DNA from: a virus
Direction: 5' to 3' (one strand)
Length of the DNA stretch: 26,093 bases
IMG/VR virus record: IMGVR_UViG_3300021957_000256
Span: 1-26,093 of that record
The translations under genes were made by a program, and so were the position numbers. The number at the start of each line of letters is the position of its first letter. Positions within the stretch are counted from its first letter, which is position 1. Positions 383-16,930 of the stretch are shown here, one piece after another. The notes beneath the pieces were generated by a model, which was not told the origin of the DNA, ran no database searches, and saw only the letters and a list, made by a program, of their open reading frames with translations.

Positions 383-3300
383 CTATTTATACGTTTTTCT
401 TTCGTAAGTTTTTCTTTCGTAAATTTTTCTTCCTTTACTAGTTGTTTTTTTCTTTTTTTCTTTATATGTTTTTTCAGGATCAATTTCCCAACTTTTCCAA
501 CCACTTAACAAAGCTAACTTTTCATACCATTTTCTTTGAGCGGAAGCTACTTCTGCTAAGCTTTGGACTTTATTTAATAACCTAGCTGTTGGAACATTAC
601 CCACTCCTTCTGTCATGCTTGCCGCTGACTTTACAAGAGGGTTATCTAAAGATAAAGGTAGTTTTTTTGCTTTTTCAAAACCTCCGGCTCTATCTATTTC
701 TTTAAAAGCATACCTGATCTTACTTACTTTAGAAGATATTGGTGGAGAAATGTCAAGGAGTTTCCAAGCAGCGTTTTCCATTTTACCTCTTCCTTTGTAT
801 TCAGATTGCTTTTTAACCTCTAGTCCTACATTTTTAAGCATGGTTACAATTCCTCCTCCATAGCCCATTCCTCTAAGAAAACCATCAGCCATACTGTTTA
901 TTATTTTAGGAGCTTTGTTTTCTAAAAACTTTTTATCCTCTTCGTCATCAGACCACGCCATTTTAAATATAGCAGACTGTAATGAAGAAAATATAGCTGA
1001 TTGAACAAATGTATAATAAGCAATTTTACTTAAATTTGTTTTCTTATCTCCTCTGTTGTTTTTAAGATCTAATATAGCTTTTTTAGTCTCTCTAGTGTAT
1101 TGCATAGGTGTGTTGGCAAAAGCTAAAACTAGTTTACCTAAATCGCTTCGTTGTTGCATACTTACTTTATCCGGTCTAGAAGACTGCTGATTTGTTTCAG
1201 ATATTTCAATCCAATCTTGCATAGCTTTATTTTCAGCCTCTTTAGTTTCAAAACCCTGTTTTTCGTATGTTTTTATTCTGTTACGATATAAAGATGCTCC
1301 CCCTAAAGCCGTAGCAGTTGCATCTGCTATTTGCGTAGGTAAAAATCCTTTTTTAAGCAAAAGAGAAACAATACTTTTAGGTGTATTTTCAGACCCGGTT
1401 ACGGCATCCGCAATTTCTGATTCTGTTACATTTATACGTAAACCTTCTCTTCTTGATTTTGCCCAGTCAGAATTAAATAAAGTTTTAAAATCTTTTGCAA
1501 ACTGAGGAACATTAGCTAACGCTTGACCTGCTTTTATAGGATTGTTATCACTCCAATTAATATAGTTTGTTGCTGATAACATTTGCAGAGTTGCAGACCT
1601 TTGATTTAAAAACATAATAGTACCTACAGAATTATTTAAGTAATTCAATGTTCTACCTTCTAGACTACTTTTAGAACTTCTTCTAGTTTTACCGGTATAC
1701 ATAGCGTCTAACATTCCTTCAAGTGCTTTTCTATAAGGTGTACCGTGAGCTGCTTCTAGCTTATTCATTACTTCAGGGGTAAACATAGTATCTACATTTT
1801 CTTTCCACTGAGCCAGTCTTTTAGACCTCAAAGTTGTGTTAAGCCCTAGTCTTAAGTCTGAAGAAATATCCCCAGCATACCAATTTTTACCAGGCATAGC
1901 GTATTCTCCTCCCGCAATTCTTTTTAAATTTAATTTAAGAACGCTTAATTCTACACTTTTATTTACAGCTTCTTTTAAAACTTTTAAGTCTGCTTTATTT
2001 ATTCCTGGCACTTCTATACCTTGACTGTCCCATATGGCTACTCTTAAGGCTTGTTCAAAAGTAAATTCGCTTCCTTCAATTTTTTTCCTAAGATTAAAGC
2101 TAGGCGAATTTGTTTCTATGTGATTTTTAATATCTTTAAATTGCTTAGACATTCGAACATTGTCAGAGTTTATACCTCTGTAAGCTTCCGCGTATGGATC
2201 GTATAGGTTTTCTTTAAAGAATTTTTGATGCGCGTCACCTTCCTTTCCTTTACCTGCGTTATAGTTCATTAAGCCCACAAAATCATCAGCAGACGCTGAT
2301 ACAAACAACTTGTATTTTCCTTTGCTACCAGCCGCTTGCTTAGCTGCAATATCAGATATGTCTTCTTTAACGCCTGTTACTTTTGTAACTATTTTATTAA
2401 AATCAGCAGCAATATTTTCAGATGCTAATGTTTTAGAATTAATAATTTTAGTAATTTGATCATTTATTTCTCCCCAGCGCTTTCCTCTTTTTTTCAAAGG
2501 CACTTTGCTTAAAGCTTTTTGAATACCTTCTGGTCCTAATTTATCATATAAAGCTTCTCCTTGAGTATAGCCCTCATATTTACCTGATATGATTAAAGAG
2601 TTGTTTAAACTATTTGATCTTAAAAATGTGTTAAAAGCTCTATTTTCAAAATTCCTAATAGCAGAGCCTCCATATCTTTTACTATCTTTTACAACTTGAG
2701 TAGGTTTATCTACAACAGCTTGCTTTAAATTATCAACTAGTTCTTCAATAGAATTGTTTAATTTTTCCACAGAAATATCTGGTTTTGAAATTAAAGACAT
2801 AAAGTCAATATTGTAACCAGCTAAACCTATCATGTGTTCATTAAAAGTGTTTTGCTTTTTTCCTTTTGCAAATCTTTTAATATTACCCATAGATACACTT
2901 TCAAACGGTATCAGCGCTTTAAATATACCTCTAGTATGATTAGTCTGCATTCTGAGTAAGCTAGCTAAACCTTTAGTAGATATACTGCCTTCTCTATGTG
3001 CTTTTGCAAGCCCTATATATATATCCTTAAGGAGTTGATTATTGCTTTGCATAGTAAGTTCATAGCCACTCGGGTTATCCCTAAGATCAGGGTGAGTTTG
3101 TTCCATGCGCATATAGTCCACTAACTCTTGTCTAAAATTAGCATCACTGGTGTTATTTTTGTATTTTTTCTTTAACTGTACAATTTTATTTTCTAGCTTC
3201 CCGTTAAATCCATTACCATAGGGATTAGCTTTATTTATATCTCCTTTCCCTACATGACGTATATATGCGTATGGGTAGTCTTTTTCAAAAGATTTATTTT

Positions 3301-6300
3301 TATTAAAAGAAACGGGTCCGCTTTCATTTTTAAATACGGTTTCTAATAAATCCTGCCTAGTGTTTGTACTTGTGTTTTTACGGTTAATGTATTTGCCGTC
3401 TATTTTTAACTTTGCTTCGGCTCCTGCTCCTTGGGTAACCGCTATTTGTATAGAAGGGTGAGCTCCTTTTAGAGGTGGTACCACACTTAAAAAAGTTTTT
3501 ACAGCTTTCTTAAGTTCTGGTAATTCAGACTGACTAGTTAACCCATCATATCCAGGGTAATCTATGTCTAATTCTTTAGAAAGTTTTGTCCACATACCTT
3601 CGGTAATAATATTTGCTTCAGCTACTTCGCGTAAGTAAGCACTACCCTCTTTTCTAGCTTCATTTAAAATTTCATTAAACTCAGGAAAATAATTAGGCGC
3701 ATATCTCATTACATTTGAAACAGCTTGAGAAAAAGTAGCAAGATCTTTTTCTTCCATTTTTAACCTAGTTAAACCTAGCCTAGCTATATCCATTGAAGCC
3801 ATATCTACGGATTTACCATCAGCAATTTTTTGTATTGTATTCATGCTTACTTCAGAGTTCTCTAAAGCTTTACGGTAAGTCCTATTAGTCATAGCTTTCC
3901 CGATTTCTTTCATAAGAGCGTTAATTGCTGTTTGTTGATTTCTATTTTGGGTTTGATTTTTATTTGCTCCAAAAAGTTCTAAAAAAGCAGTTTCATTGTA
4001 AGGTTTTTTAACTTGCGCATTCAATCCCGCCGCTGTTCCTTCTATCATATCAGCTCGCTCGCCTTTTTCATAAAAGTTATCTAAAATACTACGCTGTATA
4101 CCTGTAGCTGTTTTTAATCCTGTAGCTTGCTTTCTTGCTCCTTCAGGTAAAAGCTTATATAAAACAGAAGCGTTGTTTCTTATAAATTGTTGTTGAAGTT
4201 TTTTAGTTTTTGGTGCATCTGTTACGGTTTCACCTTTTTTATTTACTTTTGTAACTTCACCAAATACTTTTTTAGTTAGCTCAGGAGCTTTGTCTATTAA
4301 TGTTTTATAATTAACCTGATCTGGATCTAAGTCTTTAGTAGCTTCTTCTACTTCTTTGATAAATTCAGCTTTAAGCTCAGCGTCTTGTATAAGCCTATTA
4401 ACAGGTTCTATAAGTCTTTTTTCAGAAACAACTGGTGAAGGTTCTTTTTCAGTAGAAGATGTAGTTTCTGCAGCCACTTTTTCAGCAGCTTCTATTCCTT
4501 TGTCAATACCCTCTTTTGCTGATTTGATACCGAGTCTTTCAGCTAAATTATTAGCTCTTAAATACCCTCTATTTATTATAAACTTTTCTATTGGCTGAGT
4601 GCCTGGTTTATATTCATTAAGTATCATAGCTGTTAAATCTGACCTCATAGAGTCTTGAAACTTTTCTCTAGTAACTCCACCTCTAGCGTCAACAGCGATA
4701 GGATCAAATAAAGCTTTTGTCCTGCTGGTAACTAATTTACCTATAGGATCTTTAAGTTCTTCTAAAATTTCATTTTCAAGCCTAGTTTGTTTAGAGCTTT
4801 TAATTACATCTTTGTTAAACTTTTTAGCTAATTCTTTGCTTTCGCTCTCTAACTTTTTTACTTGTTCAAGCTTTGAATCTATATTTGTTTCTAACATTGT
4901 TTTATCAAATACTACAATGTTTTCAGTATCTCTACCGGTTTTTAAATCTGAGTCAGTAAACCTGGATGCTTTAATGCCTTTATTACTAAGAGCATTGTTT
5001 AGTTTACTTAAATCACTTTGAGTAAAAGAATTTTCAAATCTATTGTCTATTAATTCGTACAACCTAGAATCATCTACAGACCAATCTTTAATTTTCGGCT
5101 GTATACCAAGTTCTCTTATTACTTCAAAGACCTCAGCTTCGCTAGCTACTTCTGATTCTTTTATTTTAAATTTACTTACCGCCCCTTGGTTGCCTTTAGC
5201 ATATTCTTCAGCTTGCTCTTTGCTTTCTGAAAAGTAAACAGAGCCGTCTATATCTTTAATTGTTTTAATTTCTCCTCCGTGAAAAATATCAATTTCTTTA
5301 TCGCTTTTTTTAGCTTTTTTAGTCGAAGGCTGAGCTTTCAAAGCTTTAATTTTAGCTACATTAGTTTTTAATTTTTCAAGCTGAGCAGGAGTTCTTTCCG
5401 CTGCAGGTGTAGCTGCTATTTTTCGTTGCTCAAGCATTATGTTTGCAATTTGATTTGCAACATCACCTGATCCATATGATCCTTTTATTTCTTTTGTTTT
5501 TCCATCAAATATTTTAGTGCCTTCAATGTACAAGTTTTGTAGTCCTTGAAATTGTTTCACGTTACCATCTTTACCAATCCCTTGCGATAGTCTTTGTAAA
5601 AGATTTAAAAGTTCCGTAGGGCTTTCTATTTTTAATTGAGGAGGATTATTGTCAAAAGCGCCTTTCATTGTTCTTTCATAAAGACCTTTTACTTTTTGAG
5701 CAATTTGTCCAAAAGTATTATTTTGCACTAAGCTACTTCCTTCTCTACCCATTATTTCTATTAGGCCCATTAAATATTCTTCGCTATTTAATTCTTTTAC
5801 TTGTTTACCTTCATAAACTTCTTCTATAAGCTTTTTAAAATCAACCCCTAGGTTTTGTTTAACTAATGGCTCTATATAATCAACTATTTTAGCTAAGTTT
5901 TCAGGGTTGTTTATTCCAAACATTTCACCGTAAACATGCCCTAGCTCGTGATTAAATATACCTTTGTGGTATTTCCTTGCGTCTACAGTAATATTAAAGC
6001 CCCCGTCATCTCTTTTAGTAACTTGAGCAGCCTTGCCTTGCATTCCTTCACCGTCCATATTAACAGTAAACGTAGCGTTCATATCTTTGCCTGTAGTTTT
6101 TTTATGACCCCTCTGAGCGTTTGCAAAATCTTTTTGAGCGATTCTAGCGTTGTTTTGAGGATCAGTAGCTTCGTTTAAAGCATACGCTTCTGATATATAG
6201 TTATCAGCAGTTTGGTATATTTCAGTAGCTTTTTCTAGCTTTGGTTTTAATTCGTTTTCAATCTTTTTTAATCCTTCTGGCGTTTCTGAGTTTTTTGCTA

Positions 6301-8953
6301 TTTCTTTGTAAAGAAAGTCTATTTGAACACTTGCTTGTGTTCTTAATTTTTGTTGCCCTTTTATAGTCTTAAATATATTTTTAGGATTTAAATGAGAGTA
6401 GCTAAGCCCTGCTCCAGCTACAGCGTGGCCTAAAAGTCTTCTGTAAATACCTCCTTCTCCAAGCCATTCTATATCGTTGAAGTTTTTGTCCATGTACGTA
6501 TTAAAGTCTTCACCTCCAGCAAAGTCATCAAAGGCAGCTTCTATAACAGCAGCTCCTTCAGCAGAAGGTACCATAACTAATCCAGATTTAGCTGGCTTTA
6601 AAACCAAGTCGTTTAATTTATGAAACGCACCTTTTGCTTTAAATTTAATACCTAGTTTTCCAATTAAAGTGTTTGTTAACGCAGCAGCTGGAGTAAATGT
6701 AGCTCCCATAGCAGCTCCTCCTTCACCCATTACTCCTTCCATTTTAAATGCTTCAACTGCAGAATCAACAGCAAGAGCTTTTAGTTTATCAACAGCTCCA
6801 CCTCCAACTTTTACAATATCTGGTTGTTTGCTAACCCATTTTTGAACAGACTTACTCATTATGTTTCCTTTGTAGCCGTCAGCCGCTGCTGCTTTTACAA
6901 TGTCATCGTACTTCATTGCTGTTTTACCAGCATCTTTAAAATACTTTCCAACTTTAAGAGCACCTAAAGCGACATCAGCTCCTGTTACAGCCATAGCCAC
7001 ACCCGCTGCTACATTAGCACAAAATAATCCACCCGCTAAAACCGGTAGACCTCCTAATGTTGTGCCTACAAATTCCGATGTAGTTTCTTTAAAATTTTCT
7101 TTTTGAGCATCATCCCATTCTATTCCTGCTTCATCACCTATTTGTTTTTCAACAGCTAATATATCTGAATCATTTACCCCTGTGAAATAATCTACAGTTT
7201 CTCCTGACATTAAAGATTCTAAAAATCCTTCTCCTAGACTTCCGAAAAATCCAGTACGCTCTACACTCTTAGGGTCAATATTAAGTAAATACATGTCTTG
7301 AAAAGCTACATCTCTAGCTTTGAGATCCAAATAATCTTTAGCTATTCCTTCAATTTCTTTAGGGCCTAAAACTTCTTGTATTGTTCCGGTTCCTAAATCA
7401 TCACTTTTTTTACCGTAAACTTTAGTTCCTTCTGTAATTCCAGTTCCGAAATATGAAGTAACAACTTCTCCTAATGTAGCATTATATTTTGTACCATCAC
7501 TTCGTTCAACAGTATATTCATTTTGTAATCTACTACGAGTATCAACTAGATCTATTCTATGTGCAGTATACCTATTTCTAAGTGCTTGAAAGCTGCCGTT
7601 TTTTAAAGCAAGTAGTCTAGCTCTTTCTGCGTTAACAGTATCTGTTAAGTCAACATTATTAGTAGCTTTTTGTTTAGCGGCTTCTTGTTTGCTAAGCGTA
7701 TTAACTGCTCCTTTAAAAGGGTCGAATAAAATTACGTTATTAGGATTTAAGTAATCCCTACTAAGCTCTGTAGCTTCTGTAGTTAGTCTTTCTAATTCTT
7801 TTTTATATTCTACTTGTTGAATAGGTGTTGAGTTCTTAGAAGTTAAATTATACCTTAATTCATACGCTTTTGCCCAAATGTCAGCAATAGCTTTTTTGTT
7901 AGGATCTGTTATTTCCGAGGCTCCTCCTTTTGTAGCCCAGTTAGCCAGAGCGTTCTCATCTCCTTCAAATTTTTTGTCAGCTTCTTCTAAAATTATGTTT
8001 AAAATTTCTAAATCCGCCTCTTCCAAATCTTTAGAAATAGATTGACCAAAAGCATTATCTACAATTTTATCTATTCTATAATCAGACAAATCAGCCACAT
8101 CTAAAGCTGTATCCCCAAAAAACCCTGCTTCACCTTCGCTTTTGTAATATTTGTTATACCTGTTTACAGCTTCGTTTTTTATTTCTTTTACTAAACCTGG
8201 GTGGTTTTGTTGTAAATCTTGTGTGTCCTTTATATAAGCATCTCCCCCTTCTAAATCATAATAATCGCCGTTTTCAATTAAATCAAACACAACTCTTTCT
8301 AAATCTTTTACATTTTTTGACTTATTAGACCAAGCTTCTGCATCTTTGTTTCTTTCTATAAACTCTTGTACACTGCTCCATTCTTGCCCTTTATAACCAC
8401 CTCTTCCACCTCCTTGAGATGTTATAAAACTTTGTTTATTACCATTGGGAGCTGTAACGGTCACGCCTCTACCGTCTTTTTCAAAATCAAAACCTTCGCT
8501 ATCGCTATACGCCCTTTCGTATTGGATAACAGCATTGTCTAGACTAACCTTGGATAAGTCGGTGTTTACTTTTGATAAATCGTTATAATACTTGTTGTAT
8601 TTTTCGCGAGCTTTTAGTTGCTCAGAAGGGTTTATTATTGTTGAGCCTCTAGCAGTTGTGCTATACGCTTCTTCAGGAATATAACTTTCTAGAGTAGGTA
8701 AAGGCTCTGCAGGATCCTCAGCTTTTTGTAATTCCGAAGAAGTATTTTCCAAGTCTAATACCGTACCCATTGGTGTTGGTGTTTCTTTTGACAGAACATC
8801 CACACCTGTTGCACTGTCTTTTTGAAAATCCTGCGTCTCTTCTTCTTGCATTAACTCTGCCTCAGGGTGTTGTGTTAATAAAAAATCAATTGATTCTTGT
8901 GAGTATCCAGTTACATCAACTATTGAGCCGTCTTCTAATTTGTACTTTATCAT
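383..8953 (-). CDS. Giant polyvalent virion protein with zinc-metallopeptidase and ADP-ribosyltransferase-like domains
   Basis: This 2856-residue protein is the last gene of the late operon and follows two putative ejection proteins, the place held by gp16 in T7-like phages. It starts MIKYKLEDGSIVDVTGYS. A Gly/Ala-rich hydrophobic stretch at about 632-664 could be membrane-active. A zincin motif HELGH lies at 1002-1006, with acidic residues at 1058-1059 as possible third zinc ligand. A segment at about 1222-1355 resembles ART domains of polyvalent proteins, with FHGG at 1224-1227, VYFSES shortly after and ENIVVF near 1344. The remainder is mostly helical and charged, with a second hydrophobic helix near 2644-2667 and a Lys/Arg-rich tail of YERKT repeats. 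I see no lytic transglycosylase and no DxDGD polymerase motif. The likely role is a virion-packaged, injected multi-effector protein. Domain calls come from motifs; the injected role is inferred from gene order. The gene stops with TAG. Confidence 0.75.
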   Translation of the reverse strand: MIKYKLEDGSIVDVTGYSQESIDFLLTQHPEAELMQEEETQDFQKDSATGVDVLSKETPTPMGTVLDLENTSSELQKAEDPAEPLPTLESYIPEEAYSTTARGSTIINPSEQLKAREKYNKYYNDLSKVNTDLSKVSLDNAVIQYERAYSDSEGFDFEKDGRGVTVTAPNGNKQSFITSQGGGRGGYKGQEWSSVQEFIERNKDAEAWSNKSKNVKDLERVVFDLIENGDYYDLEGGDAYIKDTQDLQQNHPGLVKEIKNEAVNRYNKYYKSEGEAGFFGDTALDVADLSDYRIDKIVDNAFGQSISKDLEEADLEILNIILEEADKKFEGDENALANWATKGGASEITDPNKKAIADIWAKAYELRYNLTSKNSTPIQQVEYKKELERLTTEATELSRDYLNPNNVILFDPFKGAVNTLSKQEAAKQKATNNVDLTDTVNAERARLLALKNGSFQALRNRYTAHRIDLVDTRSRLQNEYTVERSDGTKYNATLGEVVTSYFGTGITEGTKVYGKKSDDLGTGTIQEVLGPKEIEGIAKDYLDLKARDVAFQDMYLLNIDPKSVERTGFFGSLGEGFLESLMSGETVDYFTGVNDSDILAVEKQIGDEAGIEWDDAQKENFKETTSEFVGTTLGGLPVLAGGLFCANVAAGVAMAVTGADVALGALKVGKYFKDAGKTAMKYDDIVKAAAADGYKGNIMSKSVQKWVSKQPDIVKVGGGAVDKLKALAVDSAVEAFKMEGVMGEGGAAMGATFTPAAALTNTLIGKLGIKFKAKGAFHKLNDLVLKPAKSGLVMVPSAEGAAVIEAAFDDFAGGEDFNTYMDKNFNDIEWLGEGGIYRRLLGHAVAGAGLSYSHLNPKNIFKTIKGQQKLRTQASVQIDFLYKEIAKNSETPEGLKKIENELKPKLEKATEIYQTADNYISEAYALNEATDPQNNARIAQKDFANAQRGHKKTTGKDMNATFTVNMDGEGMQGKAAQVTKRDDGGFNITVDARKYHKGIFNHELGHVYGEMFGINNPENLAKIVDYIEPLVKQNLGVDFKKLIEEVYEGKQVKELNSEEYLMGLIEIMGREGSSLVQNNTFGQIAQKVKGLYERTMKGAFDNNPPQLKIESPTELLNLLQRLSQGIGKDGNVKQFQGLQNLYIEGTKIFDGKTKEIKGSYGSGDVANQIANIMLEQRKIAATPAAERTPAQLEKLKTNVAKIKALKAQPSTKKAKKSDKEIDIFHGGEIKTIKDIDGSVYFSESKEQAEEYAKGNQGAVSKFKIKESEVASEAEVFEVIRELGIQPKIKDWSVDDSRLYELIDNRFENSFTQSDLSKLNNALSNKGIKASRFTDSDLKTGRDTENIVVFDKTMLETNIDSKLEQVKKLESESKELAKKFNKDVIKSSKQTRLENEILEELKDPIGKLVTSRTKALFDPIAVDARGGVTREKFQDSMRSDLTAMILNEYKPGTQPIEKFIINRGYLRANNLAERLGIKSAKEGIDKGIEAAEKVAAETTSSTEKEPSPVVSEKRLIEPVNRLIQDAELKAEFIKEVEEATKDLDPDQVNYKTLIDKAPELTKKVFGEVTKVNKKGETVTDAPKTKKLQQQFIRNNASVLYKLLPEGARKQATGLKTATGIQRSILDNFYEKGERADMIEGTAAGLNAQVKKPYNETAFLELFGANKNQTQNRNQQTAINALMKEIGKAMTNRTYRKALENSEVSMNTIQKIADGKSVDMASMDIARLGLTRLKMEEKDLATFSQAVSNVMRYAPNYFPEFNEILNEARKEGSAYLREVAEANIITEGMWTKLSKELDIDYPGYDGLTSQSELPELKKAVKTFLSVVPPLKGAHPSIQIAVTQGAGAEAKLKIDGKYINRKNTSTNTRQDLLETVFKNESGPVSFNKNKSFEKDYPYAYIRHVGKGDINKANPYGNGFNGKLENKIVQLKKKYKNNTSDANFRQELVDYMRMEQTHPDLRDNPSGYELTMQSNNQLLKDIYIGLAKAHREGSISTKGLASLLRMQTNHTRGIFKALIPFESVSMGNIKRFAKGKKQNTFNEHMIGLAGYNIDFMSLISKPDISVEKLNNSIEELVDNLKQAVVDKPTQVVKDSKRYGGSAIRNFENRAFNTFLRSNSLNNSLIISGKYEGYTQGEALYDKLGPEGIQKALSKVPLKKRGKRWGEINDQITKIINSKTLASENIAADFNKIVTKVTGVKEDISDIAAKQAAGSKGKYKLFVSASADDFVGLMNYNAGKGKEGDAHQKFFKENLYDPYAEAYRGINSDNVRMSKQFKDIKNHIETNSPSFNLRKKIEGSEFTFEQALRVAIWDSQGIEVPGINKADLKVLKEAVNKSVELSVLKLNLKRIAGGEYAMPGKNWYAGDISSDLRLGLNTTLRSKRLAQWKENVDTMFTPEVMNKLEAAHGTPYRKALEGMLDAMYTGKTRRSSKSSLEGRTLNYLNNSVGTIMFLNQRSATLQMLSATNYINWSDNNPIKAGQALANVPQFAKDFKTLFNSDWAKSRREGLRINVTESEIADAVTGSENTPKSIVSLLLKKGFLPTQIADATATALGGASLYRNRIKTYEKQGFETKEAENKAMQDWIEISETNQQSSRPDKVSMQQRSDLGKLVLAFANTPMQYTRETKKAILDLKNNRGDKKTNLSKIAYYTFVQSAIFSSLQSAIFKMAWSDDEEDKKFLENKAPKIINSMADGFLRGMGYGGGIVTMLKNVGLEVKKQSEYKGRGKMENAAWKLLDISPPISSKVSKIRYAFKEIDRAGGFEKAKKLPLSLDNPLVKSAASMTEGVGNVPTARLLNKVQSLAEVASAQRKWYEKLALLSGWKSWEIDPEKTYKEKKKKTTSKGRKIYERKTYERKTYK
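393..437 (-). repeat. 15-bp tandem repeat encoding the C-terminal YERKT repeats
   Basis: Two perfect copies of a 15-base unit lie at 393-407 and 408-422, followed by a degenerate third copy at 423-437 (11 of 15 bases match). On the minus strand they encode the extreme C-terminus of the giant protein, KIYERKTYERKTYK and then the stop. The unit is a multiple of three, so slippage would change the number of basic pentapeptides without breaking the frame. Confidence 0.8.
4889..5290 (-). other. ADP-ribosyltransferase-like domain inside the giant protein (about residues 1222-1355)
   Basis: The segment begins IDIFHGGEIKTI, continues GSVYFSESKEQAEEYA, and ends after a Gly-containing stretch with ENIVVFDKTML. 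This order matches the pattern I know for polyvalent-protein ART domains: a His-Gly strand, a G-x-[YW]-F-[ST] strand with following Ala-rich helix, and a late [VI]VF strand. His1225 and the Tyr of VYFS would be the NAD-binding residues. The final catalytic Glu or Gln is not obvious by eye, so activity is uncertain. Confidence 0.6.
5936..5950 (-). other. Zincin HExxH active-site motif in the giant protein (His1002 to His1006)
   Basis: The codons spell HELGH within GIFNHELGHVYGEMFG. The hydrophobic residues before it and the small residue inside it fit a zinc-binding helix. In zincins the two His residues bind zinc and the Glu activates water. NSEEYLMGL, 52 residues after the second His, offers Glu1058 or Glu1059 as a gluzincin-type third ligand. 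Polyvalent phage proteins often contain such a metallopeptidase, either to self-process or to cut host proteins. Confidence 0.75.
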
Positions 8954-8982: not shown

Positions 8983-10443
8983 TTATTTCTTTTTAAATTC
9001 TTCGTAAGCTTTCATTATTTCTTGTGTTCTAAAAGCGTTGCTTATCGGGCCAGGGTTCTTCTTGTCATATTCTTCAACAAACTTATCAAAGTCGGTTTTT
9101 GAACCTTCAACAGCTTTTTTTGCTTGACCTAAACTTAAGCCGCTGGCTATTGCTAAACTTTCCAGAGCTTTAGTAGGAGTAGACCCTGCTGGAATTTCTC
9201 CTTTAAAAATGTTATTTTTGTATATACCTATGGTTCCTTTGTTTTCTCTTGCTTCAAAACCCATTTCTCGCACAGCATCACCTATTTGTTCTGAAGATTT
9301 AAGTTTTGTAACATCTAGTGCTTTTATAGATTCTGTGGTGTTTTTTATTAAATCTTGAGTAGCTATCTGATCAGCTGTGAGAGGTTTTTTATCATCTCCT
9401 TCTCCTTGTGGTTTATCTATTTCTTTAATTCTAGGTCCAGCTTGCATCAATACATCTTGTCCAAATTTATCAGCAACGTACTTTGCATATGCTTCTGTTA
9501 TTTTCTTTTTAGCAGCTATAGATTCTTCACTTCCTTCAACCCAAGTTTTTTGGTACTCTATAATGTCTCCTTCACCTATTACATCGTTATAGAGAGCTAT
9601 AGCTTCTCCTGCTGTCATAGAATCTATTTCTGACTTAGCTAAACCTTCTGCATATTTTAAATATACGTCTCTAGAAGGAAGTTTAGAAAGAAACTTTGTA
9701 TCATTTACTGTAGTTGGCGTTTGATATTCTTGGTTTGCATATGCTGGCGAGTTTGGGTTTTTTAAGTCCATTCTAGTCTTTACACTTTCGTTTAAAGCTT
9801 TCATGTTTTCGGTTTCATCTGGTATTATTTGAGGTGTATCCAAATGTTCTATATCTTGGTTTAAAGAAGAACCTAAGCTTTTTCCGTTTTTACCTATAAC
9901 ATTTACTCTAAATTCATTTGTAAGTGGGTTGTAATTCATTTTTTTGCTACCAGGTGCTTGGTTGTAACCATACATTACTTCATATTTTTCCAAACCCTCA
10001 GCAGCACTATATACGCCTCCTGGAACACCTAACCCTTTTTCTCTAGCTTCTATAAAATCTTCACCCGCAACTACTGTATTTGCAAGGTTGTTTTTTAAAT
10101 TAGTACCGCTATTGTCCATATTACTAATAAAAAGATTCATTTCCCTAGTTCTTTTAGCAGGATTTATTTGCATGTACTTATTATAAGTATCTAAGTTATC
10201 ATACATTTGATCAAAATTAATAGCCTTATTAGCGCTAGCTACTTGATTTATTTCATTTGAAGCTTTATTAACTCTTTTTTGAGAGTCAGCAACTATTTTA
10301 GCATTAAGTTTAGCTCTTCTTTCAAACTCTTGTTTAGCACTAGTAAAGTACTTGGAAGATGTGTCAGCTAAAGACTTTTGCAGCTCTCTAACGTATTGAC
10401 CAGACTGAGTGTCTACTATTTGTTTTGGATTTCTGTAACTCAT
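8983..10443 (-). CDS. Putative internal virion (ejection) protein, 486 residues
   Basis: I do not recognise a named family. The protein starts MSYRNPKQIVDTQSGQYVRE and has a long, charged, probably helical N-terminal region (about 20-130), then mixed segments and a C-terminal helical part (about 400-486) rich in Lys and Glu. There is no signal peptide or membrane segment. It sits between a small hydrophobic-headed protein and the giant polyvalent protein, equivalent to gp15 in the T7 gp14-gp15-gp16 ejection cassette. That position is the basis for the role proposed here. The ATG follows the previous stop by three bases (TAACAAATG), so translation is likely coupled. It ends 29 bases before the giant gene starts. 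Other virion or chaperone roles remain possible. Confidence 0.6.
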   Translation of the reverse strand: MSYRNPKQIVDTQSGQYVRELQKSLADTSSKYFTSAKQEFERRAKLNAKIVADSQKRVNKASNEINQVASANKAINFDQMYDNLDTYNKYMQINPAKRTREMNLFISNMDNSGTNLKNNLANTVVAGEDFIEAREKGLGVPGGVYSAAEGLEKYEVMYGYNQAPGSKKMNYNPLTNEFRVNVIGKNGKSLGSSLNQDIEHLDTPQIIPDETENMKALNESVKTRMDLKNPNSPAYANQEYQTPTTVNDTKFLSKLPSRDVYLKYAEGLAKSEIDSMTAGEAIALYNDVIGEGDIIEYQKTWVEGSEESIAAKKKITEAYAKYVADKFGQDVLMQAGPRIKEIDKPQGEGDDKKPLTADQIATQDLIKNTTESIKALDVTKLKSSEQIGDAVREMGFEARENKGTIGIYKNNIFKGEIPAGSTPTKALESLAIASGLSLGQAKKAVEGSKTDFDKFVEEYDKKNPGPISNAFRTQEIMKAYEEFKKK

Positions 10444-10446
10444 TTG

Positions 10447-11265
10447 TTAGTTATTAAAATTAAAAACAGGTAAACCTGCGTAACCTGGTGTTGAATAATC
10501 TATTGATTGACTAATGTTTAATGGAGGCGGTGTAATTCCAGAACTAGTTAAGTTTGCGGGGGCATAGCCTAGTTCGTCGAATTTATTAGAAGAAGCTGCT
10601 GCGCTCATGAAACTACCAGCAGTTGAAGCAAGTCCACTAACCATACCTGTTAAAGCACCCGTTCTATCAGCGCTTGCTTGAGCCTCTCTAGCTTCAGCTC
10701 CGCTTAATTGAGCAGATACTCTATCTAATTGCTCAGCCTCTCTACCTTCTCTAGTCGCAAACATAAACTGCTCGCCGGCTACATCAGCTTGTTGTAATCT
10801 TTGAGCTTCAGCCATTTTCATTTGTTGTTGCTGTTGTTTACCAGATGCTCTTAATTTTTCGTTTTGAGCTTCTTGAGCTTCTATGCTAGCAGAAACACCT
10901 TTTTTACTTTGTAAAGCTGCTTGCGCTAAAGCGGTTGCTCCACCAGCGCTTGCTCCGGTAGCTCTAATAGTATCTAAAGTATTTGCTAAAGATATATCAG
11001 CTTGCTCTATTTGTATTTCAGCCGCTTGAGTTGCTACTCCTAATGAAGCGTATGGGTTTGAGATCATACTACTTAAGTCTGTAACACCTTCGTAAGGATT
11101 AATTATTTCTTGTCTTGAATTTTCTAAAGAAGTAAGCTTTGCTTGAAGTCTTTGCTTTTCTTTAGCTGCTTCTCGTTCCCTTCTTTTAGCTGCTCCCATA
11201 CCAAAAATCCCGCTTATAATTTGCACTCCTCCCGATATTAAAGCTCCTGCTGCTATTGCTCCCAT
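10447..11265 (-). CDS. Putative internal virion / DNA-transfer protein with N-terminal hydrophobic helix, 272 residues
   Basis: The N-terminus GAIAAGALISGGVQIISGIF is a Gly/Ala-rich hydrophobic helix that could insert into a membrane. A basic coiled coil (about 25-55) and a long Ala/Gln-rich helical region (about 75-190, with GASAGGATALAQAA and a QQQQQ run) follow. A second Gly/Ser/Ala hydrophobic patch (about 205-225) precedes a Pro/Asn-rich tail. This layout is typical of small phage ejection proteins such as T7 gp14 or P22 gp7, which help build the DNA channel through the envelope. As in T7, it is the first of three putative ejection genes. The start lies after an A/T-only stretch with no Shine-Dalgarno sequence. 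The function is inferred from architecture and order. Confidence 0.65.
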   Translation of the reverse strand: MGAIAAGALISGGVQIISGIFGMGAAKRREREAAKEKQRLQAKLTSLENSRQEIINPYEGVTDLSSMISNPYASLGVATQAAEIQIEQADISLANTLDTIRATGASAGGATALAQAALQSKKGVSASIEAQEAQNEKLRASGKQQQQQMKMAEAQRLQQADVAGEQFMFATREGREAEQLDRVSAQLSGAEAREAQASADRTGALTGMVSGLASTAGSFMSAAASSNKFDELGYAPANLTSSGITPPPLNISQSIDYSTPGYAGLPVFNFNN

Positions 11266-11283: not shown

Positions 11284-12699
11284 TTAATAAGATGATTCTG
11301 AATAATTTGAAGATACTGCGAATAGTTCTTTAGCTCCCCCTGGATTAGTTGTTGCGTCCGTAGATATAGTGACGTTAGCAAAGTAACCTTTAATACCAGT
11401 CATACTGCTACCAAATAAAACTTCTTCTTGGTTAGCACTTGTATTATTAACTAAATTAGCGTGGTATTTATTTTCTTTTCTATTGAACCCTATTCTGTAT
11501 TTAACACCATCTTCAGTATAAACTCCTTCATCATAACTGTAAACTGTAGGTTTATCGGTTGGATTAGCTGTGTCAAAACTATTAGACCAAGCACTTCCTA
11601 ATAAATTAGGACCAGTCTGATCGGATGTAAAATTAGTTATTTGCCAACCGTTACTACCTTCGTAATTAACCGTGCTAAAAACTTTTGACATGCTTACTTT
11701 AGGATTAAAAACAAATTGTATAGAAGTACTACTTTCTACATTGTAGAATTTGCCTCTATTAACGTCTTCAGCATAATGCTTCCATAGTTTACCGTCATAA
11801 AGACTGTAAAAATCACTTCTTAAACTTAATACTTGATCTGGCTTGTAAGAAAAGAAACTAGTCCAACCTTTAGCGCCTTCGTCAAAAGTCAATGTATTGT
11901 ATCCGTTAGAAGTATTTCCTGATGCTGGGTGAGTAGATAATACATACTGTTTATTATGTACGTCCCAACCTCCAACTATACTACCTTCATTAGTTAGTGT
12001 GTCTATGCGCGCAAATTCGTCTCTAAAGTAATCATACATGCCATATGTAGATATTTCAGTTAAACCGTCCATAGATAATCTTAAAACAGCGTTTCTATCT
12101 TTATCTGTAAAGTATTTTCTATATCCATAAACAGCAAAACTACCTGGATCTCTACTTATGCCAAATTCCCCTGCATAAGGTTGCATGGTGCCTATAGTTG
12201 TATTTACATTTGTTATGCTTCCACCGCCTTCAGCTGAGTATATAGCGTCTTTATCTATTAACGCTCTTGATACTTTTGATTCTTGAAATACTATTAAGTT
12301 AGTGTCTTCTGCATATAGTTTTTGTATTGAACCATTAGCTGGATCAGCGCTTTTAGTTATTTCAGAACCAACAGCAAACACATTTGTATTGTTTATACCT
12401 GTTCTTGAATTAAATATACCTGAGTATATTAAGGAATTACCTCTATTTACAGCGTTAGGTTCATCTTCTACTAGATAAGCTTTTACCCCGTAGTCGACAT
12501 TGGTATTGTTATAACCACCTCTAATTCTAGCTTCTTCAATAGTCCAACTTGGACCATTACCTTGTGTAGAAATCCTAGGATAACCACCTACAGAAGCTGG
12601 TATGCCAGCGGAACCATTCCAATCCGCTCTATTATTTCCCGCTAAAGATTTTCTAAGTAAAAAAGAATTAAAATATTTTACCTCTATAGTTGCTGCCAT
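11284..12699 (-). CDS. Beta-rich tail protein, possible second part of the tail hub/muzzle, 471 residues
   Basis: The protein is rich in Asn, Gly, Ser, Thr and aromatic residues with short alternating strands. No coiled coil, signal peptide or membrane segment is visible. Segments such as GWTSFFSYKPDQVLS and FYSLYDGKLWKHY resemble propeller-like tail proteins of crAss-like and marine phages, where a W-T-S-F-x-S-Y-x-P segment followed by a lysine/histidine strand recurs. It lies 22 bases after the 1402-residue hub-like gene and before the ejection cassette. It may therefore be the distal part of the same tail structure, encoded separately here. A receptor-binding role cannot be excluded, since the C-terminus is a Ser/Asn-rich beta region. 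The family memory is only moderate; a tail location is much more secure than the exact role. Confidence 0.6.
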   Translation of the reverse strand: MAATIEVKYFNSFLLRKSLAGNNRADWNGSAGIPASVGGYPRISTQGNGPSWTIEEARIRGGYNNTNVDYGVKAYLVEDEPNAVNRGNSLIYSGIFNSRTGINNTNVFAVGSEITKSADPANGSIQKLYAEDTNLIVFQESKVSRALIDKDAIYSAEGGGSITNVNTTIGTMQPYAGEFGISRDPGSFAVYGYRKYFTDKDRNAVLRLSMDGLTEISTYGMYDYFRDEFARIDTLTNEGSIVGGWDVHNKQYVLSTHPASGNTSNGYNTLTFDEGAKGWTSFFSYKPDQVLSLRSDFYSLYDGKLWKHYAEDVNRGKFYNVESSTSIQFVFNPKVSMSKVFSTVNYEGSNGWQITNFTSDQTGPNLLGSAWSNSFDTANPTDKPTVYSYDEGVYTEDGVKYRIGFNRKENKYHANLVNNTSANQEEVLFGSSMTGIKGYFANVTISTDATTNPGGAKELFAVSSNYSESSY

Positions 12700-12721: not shown

Positions 12722-15700
12722 TTATGTTATTACTTCAAACGTATAGTTGGAATAAGTAGACAAGGGTACATCTCCTATAAGTAAATCCACGTTGTCAGCT
12801 ACTGTTTGGTTTGAACTAACGATTAGAGAATTTCCTGACACTGATAAAATTGTTGTTCCGGCTATAATTCCAGACCCGCTAATTCTTAAACCTGATCTTA
12901 AGTCACCATTCGCATTATCTATAGGTATTGTAGAACTGTTGTTAACCGCTGCTGCTGTTCTTGCTGAATCTGCCGAAAAACTTTGAGGAAAGTCATTAGT
13001 GAAGCTACTTTTCCATTGATTTAAAGCTGCGGTTTTAGTTGTCCCGTAAAACCAAGTTCCTCCTGTTCCGCTGTCAGTTTGCTTTAAGTTTACAACAGTA
13101 ACTCCATTTGATATACTATTCCAAGATCCATTTATAGCATAAAAACCATCTGTACCGGCTGGATCAGGATTATTGTCAACCTCTATAAGACAAACAGATG
13201 CAAAACTAAAAGCTGGATTTTCTGGTGTTTGATAGTTGTATCTAAAAATATAATCAGTAACACGAATAGGTATTATACCTAATTGAGCTGTTATAGTTAT
13301 TTCTTGAAAAGCTTGACCAGCATCAATACACTTTAGTTTTAAAGTATAAATACCAGATGGAACACCTGAAGTATTGACGTTTTTTAAAACACAAGTAGAT
13401 AACGTATTAGTGTCAGTAACTGTAACACCAAAAGAAGACCCGTAGTCAACCCCTCCTTTAGTAGCAGTTATTGACCATGTTATATCTTTTCCCTGATTAC
13501 CTGCAGCGTTAGCTCCGTTAATGGCAGTAAAAGTTCCAATATCACTTGGTAGTGTAGAACTGTTAGTAGAATAATTTATAGCAGGCGTAGGAGTTGTACC
13601 ATTATTATTTGGCCCACTCATAATAGGGTCAGCATTACTTAAACTCGCCGTTTGATTATAATTAGTTGTAACACCGTCTATAACAGACGTGAAAGAAAAA
13701 TTAAAGTCATTAGCGCCATTAGTAGAACTATACCAAGCTTCATCAACAAAATCTTGAGTTACTCTAATATTGTATATGTTTGTATTAGCGGTTACTTCAT
13801 AAAGTTCAAACCAATTAGTTACATTTGAAGGTGTAGGCAATTCATTATCTAAAACAGAGTTTAAAACAAAAGTGTCTTCTGCTGCAAAAATTATAGCGTT
13901 ACCAAGATTGTCAACTAAAGTAAAATTAGTATTCAATACATTGCTATTTAATACACTGTTTTCAGCAAACGGTTCGTCATTCCAACTACTGAATCCAGCT
14001 CCCGCTGTTGTAGAATTTAAAACTAAATTATTTAAATCAGTTATTAAACCTGATGAAGACGTTTCCCAAAAAATATCTAACCTAGATTCTACAGGAGCTG
14101 TTTCAAATATGGCTAAAGTATTTATATCGTTAAAATCTTGTTGAGAAAAAGTAAAAACATCATCATTGTTAAAGCTTATATCTTTATTAAAGGTTACCGT
14201 AGTATCACCATTGGTTGTCACGCTTACAGCATATACCCCTGTGACAGCAGCTCCTTCTATAGAAACTAATGAGCTACCTATATGAATACTCCCTGTTACA
14301 CCGTCTAAAGTAACTGTTGGAACACTTGACCCATTAGCTTTCGCGCTTCCAGAACCTGCAACCTCTGTATAGCTGTTATTTATCCCAAACTGAAAGTTTG
14401 AATCTTGAGAAGTAGTTATCTCTGCTATAAAGGGATCTGAATCTGATTTGTAAAAACCGTGAAAAGCATTTAATGGATCTGTTATAGGTATAACTTCGTC
14501 GAATTTACCCTTAAAATCCTGAACATCAAAAAGACCATATAAATCCTCTATAGATGAAGTTGTAAATGATTTTCTACCTGGGTAAAACTGTTCATTTGTA
14601 GTTGAGTTGTTTTCAACTCTTCCGTATAATTCAACAGAACTTCTAAACGTTTTATCTTGAGGTCCTACTTCGGATAAATCTCTAGGTATCTTATTTATAT
14701 TATCATTTAATAATGTTATAAAAGAAGTGTTTTCACTAAGAACTGGTGAAATGTTATTTGCATCATAATTGTAAGGCAAACCTTTCATCGCTCCAGCGGA
14801 ATAAACGTTATAATATTCTTGTTCAACTTGTTTAACAACTATTTTATAAGAATACCAGCCAAGTGGGTTGTAGTCGTCGCTATTAATATCACCGTTGTAT
14901 ATACCTGGATTACCCGTGTTTGAATCTGGAACAGTAGTACCTACTGGTGAATTAACTGTTACTTTTAATGAGTTTCCTATCCAGTCAAAAGGATCTGTGT
15001 TTTTGTCTATGTAAGGAGCAAAAACTGTAGAAACACTAAACGTAGAAGCCGTTTGTTCGTTGTTTGAAAGTATAACAGAAGATTGTCTACCAAATTTATC
15101 AGATAACACAAAACCAACTTGGTAATTTCTATTTGTTTTTAAGTTACTTGAAGGATATTCTACTATGCTAGTCGTGTTTAAATCATCACCAATTGGACTA
15201 AAATCTAAGCTAGCACCCGATGTTAAGGTAACCGGCTCAGTAAGTGTCACTATAGTGTTTCCGGAATTTATTGTTGCTACTTGAGTACCTTCGGGTATAG
15301 TGTTGCTAGATGTAGTCGTAGAAACAACGTCTCCAACAACTATATCACCTGAAGCATTTGTAATTAAAATATTTGCTCCTGCAGCGTAAGTGCCTGTTGC
15401 CATTCCTACTCCTGCTAACCCTAAACCTAAACTAAAATCTAACTTAGCGCTAGAAGTTACGCCGTAATCTAAAGATGCGGGTGGAGTATGTTTATCTTGG
15501 TAATTACCATAAACTATTCTATTACTTATTATTTCTTGAGAAAGCGCTTTAACAGGTACTTTGTCGTACACCCTAATAACTTCATCTGATGGTAAAGTTT
15601 TGTATGGTATTTGTGATTCATAACTATATGACAAAGTATTTAACAAGCTGTCAGCGCTGTTAGTTCCAAAGTTATTAATATTAGGTATTGTTTCTACTAC

Positions 15701-16930
15701 TTTAACAGTCAAACCGTCGGACTCTTTATATAGTATGTCTATTTCTTCAACATGCAAATCACTATTTAAGTTTGCTACGCTTGAAGGTAATGGTATTTTT
15801 AAATCTATTTTATTAACTTTATTTTCCATAAAGTCAACTATAGTAGAAGAAAAAGCTTGCTCTTCATCACCTTCTGTGGACGTATTATTTAAAAAGTAAC
15901 CGTCTTGTTTAGGTATAAAACAAGGTTGAGTAAATGGTGCCATTATAGAATACTCACCGTCGTTAAATTTAAATCTATAGCTAAATCTTACAAACTTGTC
16001 TTCTAAAAACTTAGGATCGCCTTTATAGTTTGGTATATAGTAAGGATTAGCATTGAACACTAACACTTCTTCATCGGTAACGTCTATAGCAGAGCTAACG
16101 TATAATGTTGTTGAAGTACTTTCTGGACTCGCAGCAACAGTTATTTGAGGGTTAAAATCTACAACGTTGCCAAGTATGTCAACTTTTTTCACACTTTGAC
16201 CCGGCACAGGAACTCTTCCAACAGGTACACTTGTGTTTGTTATGTTTATGCTAGTTGTATTGTTTTGAGTTCCATCAACCTGAGAAGTACCTCCATTTGG
16301 ATAAGCTATACTTGAAACGTCTTTCATAGTAGATTCGTAGTCTCCAGGCGATAAAGAGCTGCTTTCGTATAATTCTATTGATTGGTATGGGTTGTATTTG
16401 GCTACAGATATATTTTCTTCTGTTGAATAGTACCCCGCTTGAATAGCGCTTGTAACGTTGATTTTTCTAGGTTGGTTTCTGTTATCTGTCCAAAACAACA
16501 GGTCTTCAATTAAGTTTACACCAAATATTGGGTTTAATTTAGAAAAGTTTAAAAAAGCACCGGTGACTAATATGGACGAAAGTCCGCTAGAAACATTGTA
16601 AGAAACTACGTAATGATTTGAACCATCTTCACCAGGTGGTATATAATCATTAGGATTCGCTGTATAACTACCATCATTGTCTGTTAAAAATACGTATATA
16701 GTATTACTTGCTTCATCTGATAAATAGCCTATAGAAAATACATTCTCGCTGACTCCAAAATCACTAACTTGCTTATTACCTAAAACATTTTCCAAAGCTC
16801 CAACATCGGAACCTTCTGATTTACTTATCTGAGCATTTATAGCGTTTCTATATTCTCCTGATGGTATAAGTCTACTATCAAGATCTTTATTCATTTTGGA
16901 CTTTATAAAAGCATTTTTAACTTCTGCCAT
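12722..16930 (-). CDS. Large tail hub / muzzle-like structural protein, 1402 residues
   Basis: The N-terminus carries FIKSKMNKDLDSRLIPSGEY followed by an EGSDVGALENVLGN-type segment, and LLFWTDNRNQPRKINV near 145-157. These are recurrent in large tail proteins of crAss-like and marine short-tailed phages and suggest a propeller-like platform (about 1-500). Later parts look modular: three related beta modules near 517-577, 866-928 and 1329-1386, and an Ig- or cadherin-like segment near 1140-1215. The protein likely forms the tail tube end or muzzle through which DNA leaves, with the inserted modules exposed. It follows two ring-protein genes by 8 bases and precedes another beta-rich tail gene. 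Its length is compatible with muzzle proteins, but the modular C-terminal half could also bind host surface glycans. Confidence 0.68.
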   Translation of the reverse strand: MAEVKNAFIKSKMNKDLDSRLIPSGEYRNAINAQISKSEGSDVGALENVLGNKQVSDFGVSENVFSIGYLSDEASNTIYVFLTDNDGSYTANPNDYIPPGEDGSNHYVVSYNVSSGLSSILVTGAFLNFSKLNPIFGVNLIEDLLFWTDNRNQPRKINVTSAIQAGYYSTEENISVAKYNPYQSIELYESSSLSPGDYESTMKDVSSIAYPNGGTSQVDGTQNNTTSINITNTSVPVGRVPVPGQSVKKVDILGNVVDFNPQITVAASPESTSTTLYVSSAIDVTDEEVLVFNANPYYIPNYKGDPKFLEDKFVRFSYRFKFNDGEYSIMAPFTQPCFIPKQDGYFLNNTSTEGDEEQAFSSTIVDFMENKVNKIDLKIPLPSSVANLNSDLHVEEIDILYKESDGLTVKVVETIPNINNFGTNSADSLLNTLSYSYESQIPYKTLPSDEVIRVYDKVPVKALSQEIISNRIVYGNYQDKHTPPASLDYGVTSSAKLDFSLGLGLAGVGMATGTYAAGANILITNASGDIVVGDVVSTTTSSNTIPEGTQVATINSGNTIVTLTEPVTLTSGASLDFSPIGDDLNTTSIVEYPSSNLKTNRNYQVGFVLSDKFGRQSSVILSNNEQTASTFSVSTVFAPYIDKNTDPFDWIGNSLKVTVNSPVGTTVPDSNTGNPGIYNGDINSDDYNPLGWYSYKIVVKQVEQEYYNVYSAGAMKGLPYNYDANNISPVLSENTSFITLLNDNINKIPRDLSEVGPQDKTFRSSVELYGRVENNSTTNEQFYPGRKSFTTSSIEDLYGLFDVQDFKGKFDEVIPITDPLNAFHGFYKSDSDPFIAEITTSQDSNFQFGINNSYTEVAGSGSAKANGSSVPTVTLDGVTGSIHIGSSLVSIEGAAVTGVYAVSVTTNGDTTVTFNKDISFNNDDVFTFSQQDFNDINTLAIFETAPVESRLDIFWETSSSGLITDLNNLVLNSTTAGAGFSSWNDEPFAENSVLNSNVLNTNFTLVDNLGNAIIFAAEDTFVLNSVLDNELPTPSNVTNWFELYEVTANTNIYNIRVTQDFVDEAWYSSTNGANDFNFSFTSVIDGVTTNYNQTASLSNADPIMSGPNNNGTTPTPAINYSTNSSTLPSDIGTFTAINGANAAGNQGKDITWSITATKGGVDYGSSFGVTVTDTNTLSTCVLKNVNTSGVPSGIYTLKLKCIDAGQAFQEITITAQLGIIPIRVTDYIFRYNYQTPENPAFSFASVCLIEVDNNPDPAGTDGFYAINGSWNSISNGVTVVNLKQTDSGTGGTWFYGTTKTAALNQWKSSFTNDFPQSFSADSARTAAAVNNSSTIPIDNANGDLRSGLRISGSGIIAGTTILSVSGNSLIVSSNQTVADNVDLLIGDVPLSTYSNYTFEVIT
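12773..12946 (-). repeat. Beta module copy C (residues 1329-1386 of the 1402-residue tail protein)
   Basis: Third member of a divergent family inside one protein. It keeps the pattern of a strand, then GDLRSG, then GIIAGTTILSV, then a strand LIVSS and a final hydrophobic strand. It sits almost at the C-terminus. The similarity is at protein level only. Confidence 0.55.
14147..14335 (-). repeat. Beta module copy B (residues 866-928 of the 1402-residue tail protein)
   Basis: Second member of the module family: a strand TVTLD, then GSIHIGSSLVSIEG, then VTGVYAVSV, then TTVTFNKDI and a closing VFTF strand. The spacing of the Gly turn and the central V-x-S-V strand matches copies A and C by eye. 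Confidence 0.55.
15200..15382 (-). repeat. Beta module copy A (residues 517-577 of the 1402-residue tail protein)
   Basis: First member of the module family: ANILITN, then GDIVVGDVVS, then IPEGTQVATI, then TIVTLTEPV and a closing SLDF strand. The GT-x-V turn and the alternating hydrophobic strands are the shared signature. It is inserted in the middle of the platform region, as if it projects from it. Confidence 0.55.

Follow-up and report, generated by a model that had tools for sequence, protein, structure and literature searches.

A giant phage protein with a zincin-type domain and a module resembling sigma-factor region 2, a predicted injected cargo protein

Introduction

What is made by a gene that fills a third of the phage DNA at hand, and what could its product do in the infected cell? 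The question is raised by IMG/VR virus record IMGVR_UViG_3300021957_000256, whose entire 26,093 bases were analysed here (the window) and which is probably a genome fragment. Its gene P0001 is one uninterrupted open reading frame (ORF) of 2,856 codons with an ATG start, located on the minus strand at 383-8953 (8,571 of the 26,093 bases, a third, as noted in a first-pass annotation of this DNA), while the plus strand across the same positions is full of stops. That annotation likened the gene, the last of a trio, to the ejection genes of T7, and proposed that a zincin motif and an ADP-ribosyltransferase (ART)-like domain are injected with the DNA.

According to our analysis, P0001 is best read as a polyvalent cargo protein, a kind already known, that has a conserved C-terminal domain of 700 residues; we infer its injection and activities and put the probability of this reading at about 0.65. 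Three elements go beyond the first-pass annotation: a sigma-region-2-like module, a HAD module present in many relatives, and the conserved C-terminal domain.

Results

The giant and its family

The following parts of P0001 could be distinguished:

383-8953, minus strand: P0001, giant polyvalent-type protein of 2856 amino acids (ORF; relatives)
5576-5995, minus strand: predicted zincin-type domain, residues 987-1126, third-ligand candidate Glu1059 (family conservation; weak fold matches)
5936-5950, minus strand: HELGH motif, residues 1002-1006
4859-5311, minus strand: ART-PolyVal-like cassette, residues 1215-1365, with conserved His1225
4526-4906, minus strand: sigma-factor region-2-like helical module of a divergent subtype, residues 1350-1476 (P0001 from its modelled structure, relatives from sequence)
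3791-4192, minus strand: module, residues 1588-1721, common to 44 of 101 other giants
2690-3049, minus strand: module, residues 1969-2088, common to 63 of 101 other giants
392-2491, minus strand: conserved C-terminal all-helical domain, residues 2155-2854
8714-8953, minus strand: N-terminal segment, residues 1-80, common to 7 of 101 other giants
6986-7042, minus strand: residues 638-656, the sole P0001 segment above the hydropathy threshold used (1.4)

P0001 had matches in 16 of the 50 related records first examined, chiefly through its last 680 residues, and many of the 34 records without a match are short. A profile of the C-terminal domain found at least 577 relatives among the first 598 candidate stretches of viral contigs. 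Eighty loci were kept (relatives are cited below by L numbers), 75 of them with a complete longest ORF of 1,984-3,786 amino acids. Removal of 12 duplicates (at least 90% identical) and 7 incomplete sequences from 97 giants left a nonredundant set of 78, P0001 included, in which the giant is defined as the longest ORF. The C-terminal domain defines this set because it served as query. Its model is all-helical and of modest confidence (mean predicted local distance difference test, pLDDT, 61.6); for it, Foldseek found nothing at E <= 0.001 and VIA nothing with Z >= 5. Nothing significant was found for the whole of P0001 by tblastn against phages or by a close-relative scan of viral contigs, and with the C-terminal part tblastn returned just 6 rows at E <= 10, which is chance level.

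The ends of these proteins vary. P0001 closes with a lysine-rich tail containing a repeated YERKT unit (383-470), and L121 ends in DLDLDL repeats. At L169 (3618-9572, 10001-11971) the longest ORF does not extend to the C-terminal domain, which may mean that the giant is split or broken in this phage.

A zincin-type domain conserved across the family

The zincin motif pointed out by the first-pass annotation gained weight from the relatives. An HExxH motif, HELGH in P0001, is present in 75 of the 78 nonredundant complete giants, against 0.2 expected from shuffling, and a profile of P0001 residues 961-1140 matches 67 of the 78. In an alignment of 24 rows, picked from 36 profile hits (L115, which reads QEVGH, is not among the 24), the only invariant columns are H1002, E1003, H1006, Y1047 and E1059 in P0001 numbering. 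We take H1002 and H1006 to be the two histidines of the site, E1003 the catalytic glutamate and E1059 the third-ligand glutamate of a gluzincin-like site. With HExxH and a downstream Glu, a zincin-type (gluzincin-like) domain in P0001 is well supported by sequence conservation, and zinc binding is predicted. A zincin profile built without cultured phages also found gp18 of the Flavobacterium phage vB_FspP_elemoF_6-3D (elemoF), with an independent E-value of 1.4e-11.

Fold comparison points in the same direction at low Z. Over the zincin stretch, the model of P0001 residues 955-1500 matched lethal factor residues 621-773 at rank 39 (Z 5.1, 122 aligned) and Certhrax at rank 41 (Z 5.0, 141 aligned). 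For the N4 zincin, too, lethal factor was named as the relative in the text of Iyer et al. (PMC5512222). Foldseek found no match of the model at E <= 0.001, in either PDB or BFVD; the BFVD list was headed by a protein named for a 'large polyvalent protein associated domain' at E 0.03, which we did not count as evidence. Comparison of the zincin profile with PDB sequences gave nothing convincing, and Pfam searches with single sequences were not significant (Reprolysin_5 at E 0.068 for P0001, Peptidase_M78 at E 0.0064 for L207). The first-pass annotation had staked its reading on significant zincin or ART matches. Library matches of the whole of P0001 as a single sequence are not significant; the zincin case rests on family conservation. 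As a side observation, the 3859-residue giant of a Manatee Spring phage (L124) has two HExxH motifs, at residues 1615 and 2500.

A rare ART-like cassette

ART-PolyVal (PF18760) is the top Pfam match of residues 1215-1365 (E 0.0023, 19.2 bits) and likewise of the L118 copy (E 0.015). Searched record by record, PF18760 matched 4 of 50 records, all below cut-off (E 6.1e-5 and 18.1 bits in the window's own record), and 2 of 14 control genomes, also below cut-off. A scan of viral contigs with the cassette found four relatives, one of them the L118 contig itself. His1225, the candidate for the catalytic-type His of the first ART strand, is invariant across the five ART copies. In P0001 and L210 the cassette lies 197-218 residues from HExxH, in L211, L212 and L118 928-1063 residues; in these last three (in L118 from residue 2056 onward) the cassette begins 20-23 residues past an FDFDDT motif, inside the start of the HAD-like module, as if inserted. 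With so few copies, at differing places relative to HExxH, the cassette is rare and mobile. The ART profile found nothing convincing among PDB sequences, and ART structures are absent from the VIA list of the 955-1500 model, which barely tested the ART part. We consider residues 1215-1365 to be a likely ART-PolyVal-like domain, and ADP-ribosylation would be its expected activity.

A module resembling sigma-factor region 2

Behind the zincin domain, and in P0001 behind the ART cassette too, many giants carry a helical module that resembles region 2 of sigma factors: the relatives in sequence, P0001 in its modelled structure. It seems to occur in several sequence subtypes; that of P0001 is divergent and was identified from its modelled fold. 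With a profile confined to the module, 53 of 102 giants are found (45 of the 78 nonredundant ones), and the module core is found in 31 of 102; P0001 is not among the finds of the profile.

Canonical members resemble RpoS; L203, for instance, reads GILDLIREYDPESGVPLAAY. Against all PDB sequences, the canonical alignment (16 rows) has two sigma factors on top (E 0.043 and 0.095), an alignment of a second subtype (6 rows) is matched best by a sigma factor (E 0.037), with an ECF sigma in fourth place, and a third-group alignment (7 rows) has gp55 first (E 0.019), which we take to be the late sigma factor of T4. These three alignments are disjoint and all from relatives; for the second and third, rows were selected with a loose signature that is present in 49 of the 68 hits of a wider profile (68 of 102 giants), which started within the end of the zincin region. 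The three agree on sigma though none is significant alone, and the zincin, HAD and ART profiles gave no sigma factor. In profile-profile comparison with four E. coli sigma factors, the canonical rows reached E 3.7e-4 (probability 36%), six other slices 0.14-0.87 and the P0001 subtype 0.84. A 23-residue pattern of four of five E. coli sigma factors is present in 13 of 102 giants, with 0.0 expected; it was written after both sequences were seen and is thus descriptive.

For P0001 itself, iterative searches with slices 1321-1500 and 1441-1620 found 7 and 43 giants, and L175, in the first group, is also matched by the module profile; the sequence link of P0001 to the canonical module is therefore indirect. 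The P0001 module is without paired glycines. Its model has a pLDDT of about 90 over much of its length. The top VIA structural match is chain A of 9a7s (Z 8.7, 97 residues), from an integrative model with the title RPSD-RPOB; this chain has 254 residues, and we take it to be Bacillus SigD. The second of the two best matches is the SigW crystal structure 5wur (Z 8.7, 86 residues), and chain F of the E. coli transcription complex 8u3b, presumably sigma-70, is at rank 4 (Z 6.4). RNase III (Z 6.1) is the best non-sigma row over the module, and the best other row anywhere has Z 6.6.

These data can also be read as convergence, with a helical bundle that resembles region 2 and makes no contact with RNA polymerase. 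Several results weigh in this direction and against a sigma relationship. The family Sigma70_r2 (PF04542) matched no giant in 35 records, the canonical module profile does not reach P0001, and the P0001 subtype gives no sigma by sequence, a fourth alignment (7 rows including P0001) having found no sigma factor in PDB. Compared with the phages' own five sigma factors, the module scored E 0.042, with controls at 0.073-0.62. According to a note of the structural tool, helical bundles can reach Z values such as 8.7 by chance. In canonical members, inspection shows Lys at the position of RpoD W433, and the positions that we take to be the promoter-melting aromatics of RpoD are just partly kept. Convergence does not readily account for a sigma factor as the best PDB sequence match of three disjoint alignments, for the 23-residue pattern, or for two sigma entries as the best structural rows. 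We regard it as quite plausible, if somewhat short of an even chance. Because the melting aromatics are only partly kept, we consider a clamp-binding mimic likelier than a sigma that opens promoters.

The HAD-like module and the order of modules

A HAD-type phosphatase-like module (FDFDDT, LTAR, DD) is present in 62 of 102 giants, P0001 being without it. The polynucleotide kinase family phrog_415 matches 5 of 16 members, and the HAD profile found nothing convincing among PDB sequences. In all 27 giants holding the three modules, the order is zincin, sigma-like, HAD.

Position in the virion gene cluster

The minus-strand gene order is terminase C-terminal part, portal, P0010, probable capsid protein, P0008, P0007, P0006, P0005, P0004, P0003, P0002 and P0001. 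The neighbours of the giant gene are the following:

8983-10443, minus strand: P0002, 486 amino acids, middle protein of the cargo trio
10447-11265, minus strand: P0003, 272 amino acids, hydrophobic-headed; family related to phi38:1 gp99
11284-12699, minus strand: P0004, tail protein with crassvirus muzzle C-terminal domain (PF25729, E 2.2e-8; PHROG)
12722-16930, minus strand: P0005, tail protein matching the N-terminal part of phrog_14478 (PHROG)
16939-18027, minus strand: P0006, virion structural protein (phrog_13977)
18031-18798, minus strand: P0007, virion structural protein (phrog_14543)
19784-21157, minus strand: P0009, probable major capsid protein (phrog_13704, virion structural protein)
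22275-24680, minus strand: P0011, portal (phrog_6547)
24681-26093, minus strand: P0012, C-terminal part of terminase large subunit, frame open at the window end (phrog_6681)

The portal P0011 matches 87 phage records, with 50.5% best identity and 25.5-50.5% among the 60 matches listed, and the capsid protein P0009 matches 85 (best 48.0%). All but one of the portal-matching records (86 of 87) are named for flavobacterial hosts: Flavobacterium 68, Cellulophaga 15, Tenacibaculum 2 and Maribacter 1; the remaining one is the Manatee Spring assembly. By this homology of portal and capsid, the marine, uncultured phage is related to Cellulophaga phi38:1 and phi40:1 and to the Flavobacterium elemo phages (phi38:1/elemo/Panino group).

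As the first-pass annotation had it, the giant comes last in a trio, after a small protein with a hydrophobic N-terminus (P0003; best 19-residue Kyte-Doolittle mean 1.78, at residue 3) and one of 486 residues (P0002). Five cultured phages (Panino, ctfjg026, elemoF, phi38:1 and phi46:3) have a small, a middle and a giant protein (1439-3859 amino acids) at the same place, with an extra small gene between in phi46:3. For the small protein there is homology: the P0003 family matched a five-protein alignment of the cultured-phage counterparts by hhalign with 97.4% probability (E 9.1e-12), and singly phi38:1 gp99 (95.8%), Panino (87.6%), elemoF (78.1%), ctfjg026 (31.3%) and phi46:3 (14.8%). No such link was found by hhalign for P0002 or the giant with their phi38:1 counterparts. 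In phi40:1, near-identical to phi38:1 in this region, gp097-gp101 carry the note 'annotation based on experimental MS/MS proteomics analysis' (MS/MS, tandem mass spectrometry). The phi38:1 record KC821614 (L106) cites 'phi18:1_gp101'; the phi18:1 record, with only 65 annotated features, is that of an unrelated phage of another kind, and the MS/MS notes sit in phi40:1.

Two further features of the window may be mentioned. The neighbours P0005 and P0004 (11284-16930) cover different parts of the tail-protein family phrog_14478, its start and its middle, like one split gene. On the plus strand, 3-272 encodes the C-terminal end of a ribonucleotide reductase large subunit (PF02867, E 2.6e-15), convergent with the end of the giant gene.

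Discussion

Proposed role of the giant

We propose the following course of events. P0001 would be made with the other late virion genes, as the gene order indicates, and packed in the capsid beside P0002 and P0003, as their phi40:1 counterparts annotated from MS/MS suggest. At infection, P0003 and P0002 could help to form a route through the envelope, and the giant could enter the cell partly unfolded, by analogy with T7 and crassviruses. There, the zincin would cut the chain to free the modules, or cut a host protein, and the ART module could modify a host target. The sigma-region-2-like module might then bind host RNA polymerase and help to redirect or block host transcription. The C-terminal helical domain may be the common packaging or translocation part; the modules between it and the zincin are exchanged among the phages.

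A separate sigma factor gene is found in 16 of 20 longer uncultured relatives (PF04542, 10 over cut-off; open frames of 251-274 amino acids in 15 of the 16), which suggests that these phages use the host polymerase. With the same family, elemoF and phi38:1 show no separate sigma factor gene. Stand-alone sigma factor genes are also present at L214-L218. A scan of 22 records with PF00940 found no polymerase, its controls being silent as well, and is uninformative. An injected sigma-like module could act before any phage gene is expressed. It is thus tempting to propose that this phage group packs a sigma-like domain in the virion within a giant injected polyprotein, and that the region-2-like module, together with the protease and in some phages the ART domain, captures or blocks host RNA polymerase at entry, in place of a polymerase brought along. 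This proposal is tentative, and we hold the odds to be against it. N4 and crassviruses bring an RNA polymerase in the virion, and phage sigma factors made after infection are known. If our proposal is true, the particle would bring in a finished sigma factor, adding another way of starting phage transcription to virion polymerases and plain host promoters.

Some of our results weigh against P0001 as a cargo protein. The whole protein has no significant family in Pfam, PHROG or NCBIfam. Its C-terminal domain was not found in the five cultured-phage giants examined, nor its zincin in those of phi38:1, Panino, phi46:3 or (by HMMER) ctfjg026. The mass-spectrometry link of the giant is thus one of position, and its packaging and injection are argued from the phi40:1 counterpart. 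The ART-like domain of the first-pass annotation is the top Pfam match, but it stays under the gathering score (18-19 of 31.2 bits).

Other readings of the giant

It could be argued that the giant is mainly an ejection or translocation machine like T7 gp16, in which a channel or motor is formed by the C-terminal helices, the zincin, ART and sigma-like pieces being of minor importance or in decay. This would suit its place after a small and a middle protein, and the C-terminal domain as the best conserved part of the giant (30-48% identity to P0001). Decay would also fit L115, where the first His of HExxH is lost and the zincin is possibly inactivated, as well as L136 and L185, which have no HExxH. 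However, within the zincin region the catalytic residues are conserved best and the rest diverges, and the cassettes are gained and lost in the fashion of effectors. Moreover, Pfam at E <= 1 gave two weak families only for P0001, neither of them a lysozyme or transglycosylase, so the first-pass annotation was right in seeing no lytic transglycosylase. We consider such a machine an unlikely explanation of the whole protein.

Alternatively, the zincin could be a virion-maturation protease that acts in the producing cell, cutting the giant or head proteins at assembly, with nothing enzymatic injected. Among the twelve window proteins scanned, no further protease family came up, and nearly all giants listed have a single HExxH. 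The window is only part of the genome, however, and the zincin forms one chain with ART-, sigma- and HAD-like modules instead of being encoded near the capsid gene. In addition, zincin-bearing polyvalent proteins are predicted to be processed in the text of PMC5512222. Maturation in the producing cell appears rather improbable to us. Least probable by far is a virion RNA polymerase or subunit, as crAss001 gp47, gp49 and gp50: P0001 shares with gp47, which itself has one HExxH, the place after the muzzle and two cargo proteins, and it has one DxDxD-type string (DLDPD at 1541), but this is not of the crAss form, no crAss-type motif was found in P0001, no profile matches gp47, gp49 or gp50, and the separate sigma genes of the longer relatives suggest use of the host polymerase.

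Comparison with known systems

In T7, gp14, gp15 and gp16 follow one another as small, middle and large proteins. P0003, P0002 and P0001 show the same order, and to this extent the parallel drawn by the first-pass annotation holds in position; it does not extend to families, as no Pfam or PHROG family is common to the two sets and no transglycosylase was matched. Nearer comparisons are the cargo sets of the Cellulophaga and elemo phages and of the crassviruses.

In crAss001, the cargo genes gp45, gp46 and gp47 come after the muzzle gene in the account of Bayfield et al. 2023 (PMC10172136), and in the window P0004 has the muzzle C-terminal domain. The difference is that no module has a convincing profile match to gp44-gp50, the best being the P0003 family with gp45 137-193 (13.9%, E 0.002, among 48 comparisons). 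The HExxH of gp47 (L225), a protein labelled RNA-polymerase subunit, lies near its C-terminus at residue 2157, and gp47 has no profile match to the P0001-type zincin.

The gp099-gp101 genes of Cellulophaga phi40:1 and phi38:1 (Pervagoviridae) share the order after the tail genes, and the portal, capsid and small cargo protein are related. Unlike P0001, gp101 has 1691 amino acids, no HExxH and no detectable match to the P0001 zincin or C-terminal domain. In elemoF, gp18 (3694 amino acids) is a giant at the same position, annotated as structural (we did not see the basis of this annotation), with a homologous zincin; it differs in being annotated with DUF3293 and in having no match to the P0001 C-terminal domain. 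As the large family has a zincin in common with a cultured elemo phage, bench phages would allow packaging and processing to be tested.

Iyer et al. 2017 (PMC5512222) described polyvalent proteins with zincin and ART domains, and their text also predicts processing by the zincin. As in their cases, P0001 is a very large phage protein encoded in a virion gene cluster, with a zincin-type domain and a likely ART domain, of a kind predicted to be packaged and injected. It shows the zincin hub domain and the late virion gene position of polyvalent proteins, the zincin being well supported and the ART domain likely but below cut-off. It differs from them in its sigma-region-2-like module ('sigma' occurs 0 times in the main text of PMC5512222) and in its 700-residue C-terminal domain, which has no Pfam match at E <= 0.05. 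A jumbo-phage survey (PMC7824862) mentions, in the text consulted, phage sigma factors and injected ART domains separately, and among the openly licensed PMC papers listed in our searches we found no description of a virion-packaged sigma-like domain, polyvalent proteins included.

In summary, zincin and ART polyvalent proteins are already known, and what is new here is a sigma-like module in a predicted polyvalent cargo protein.

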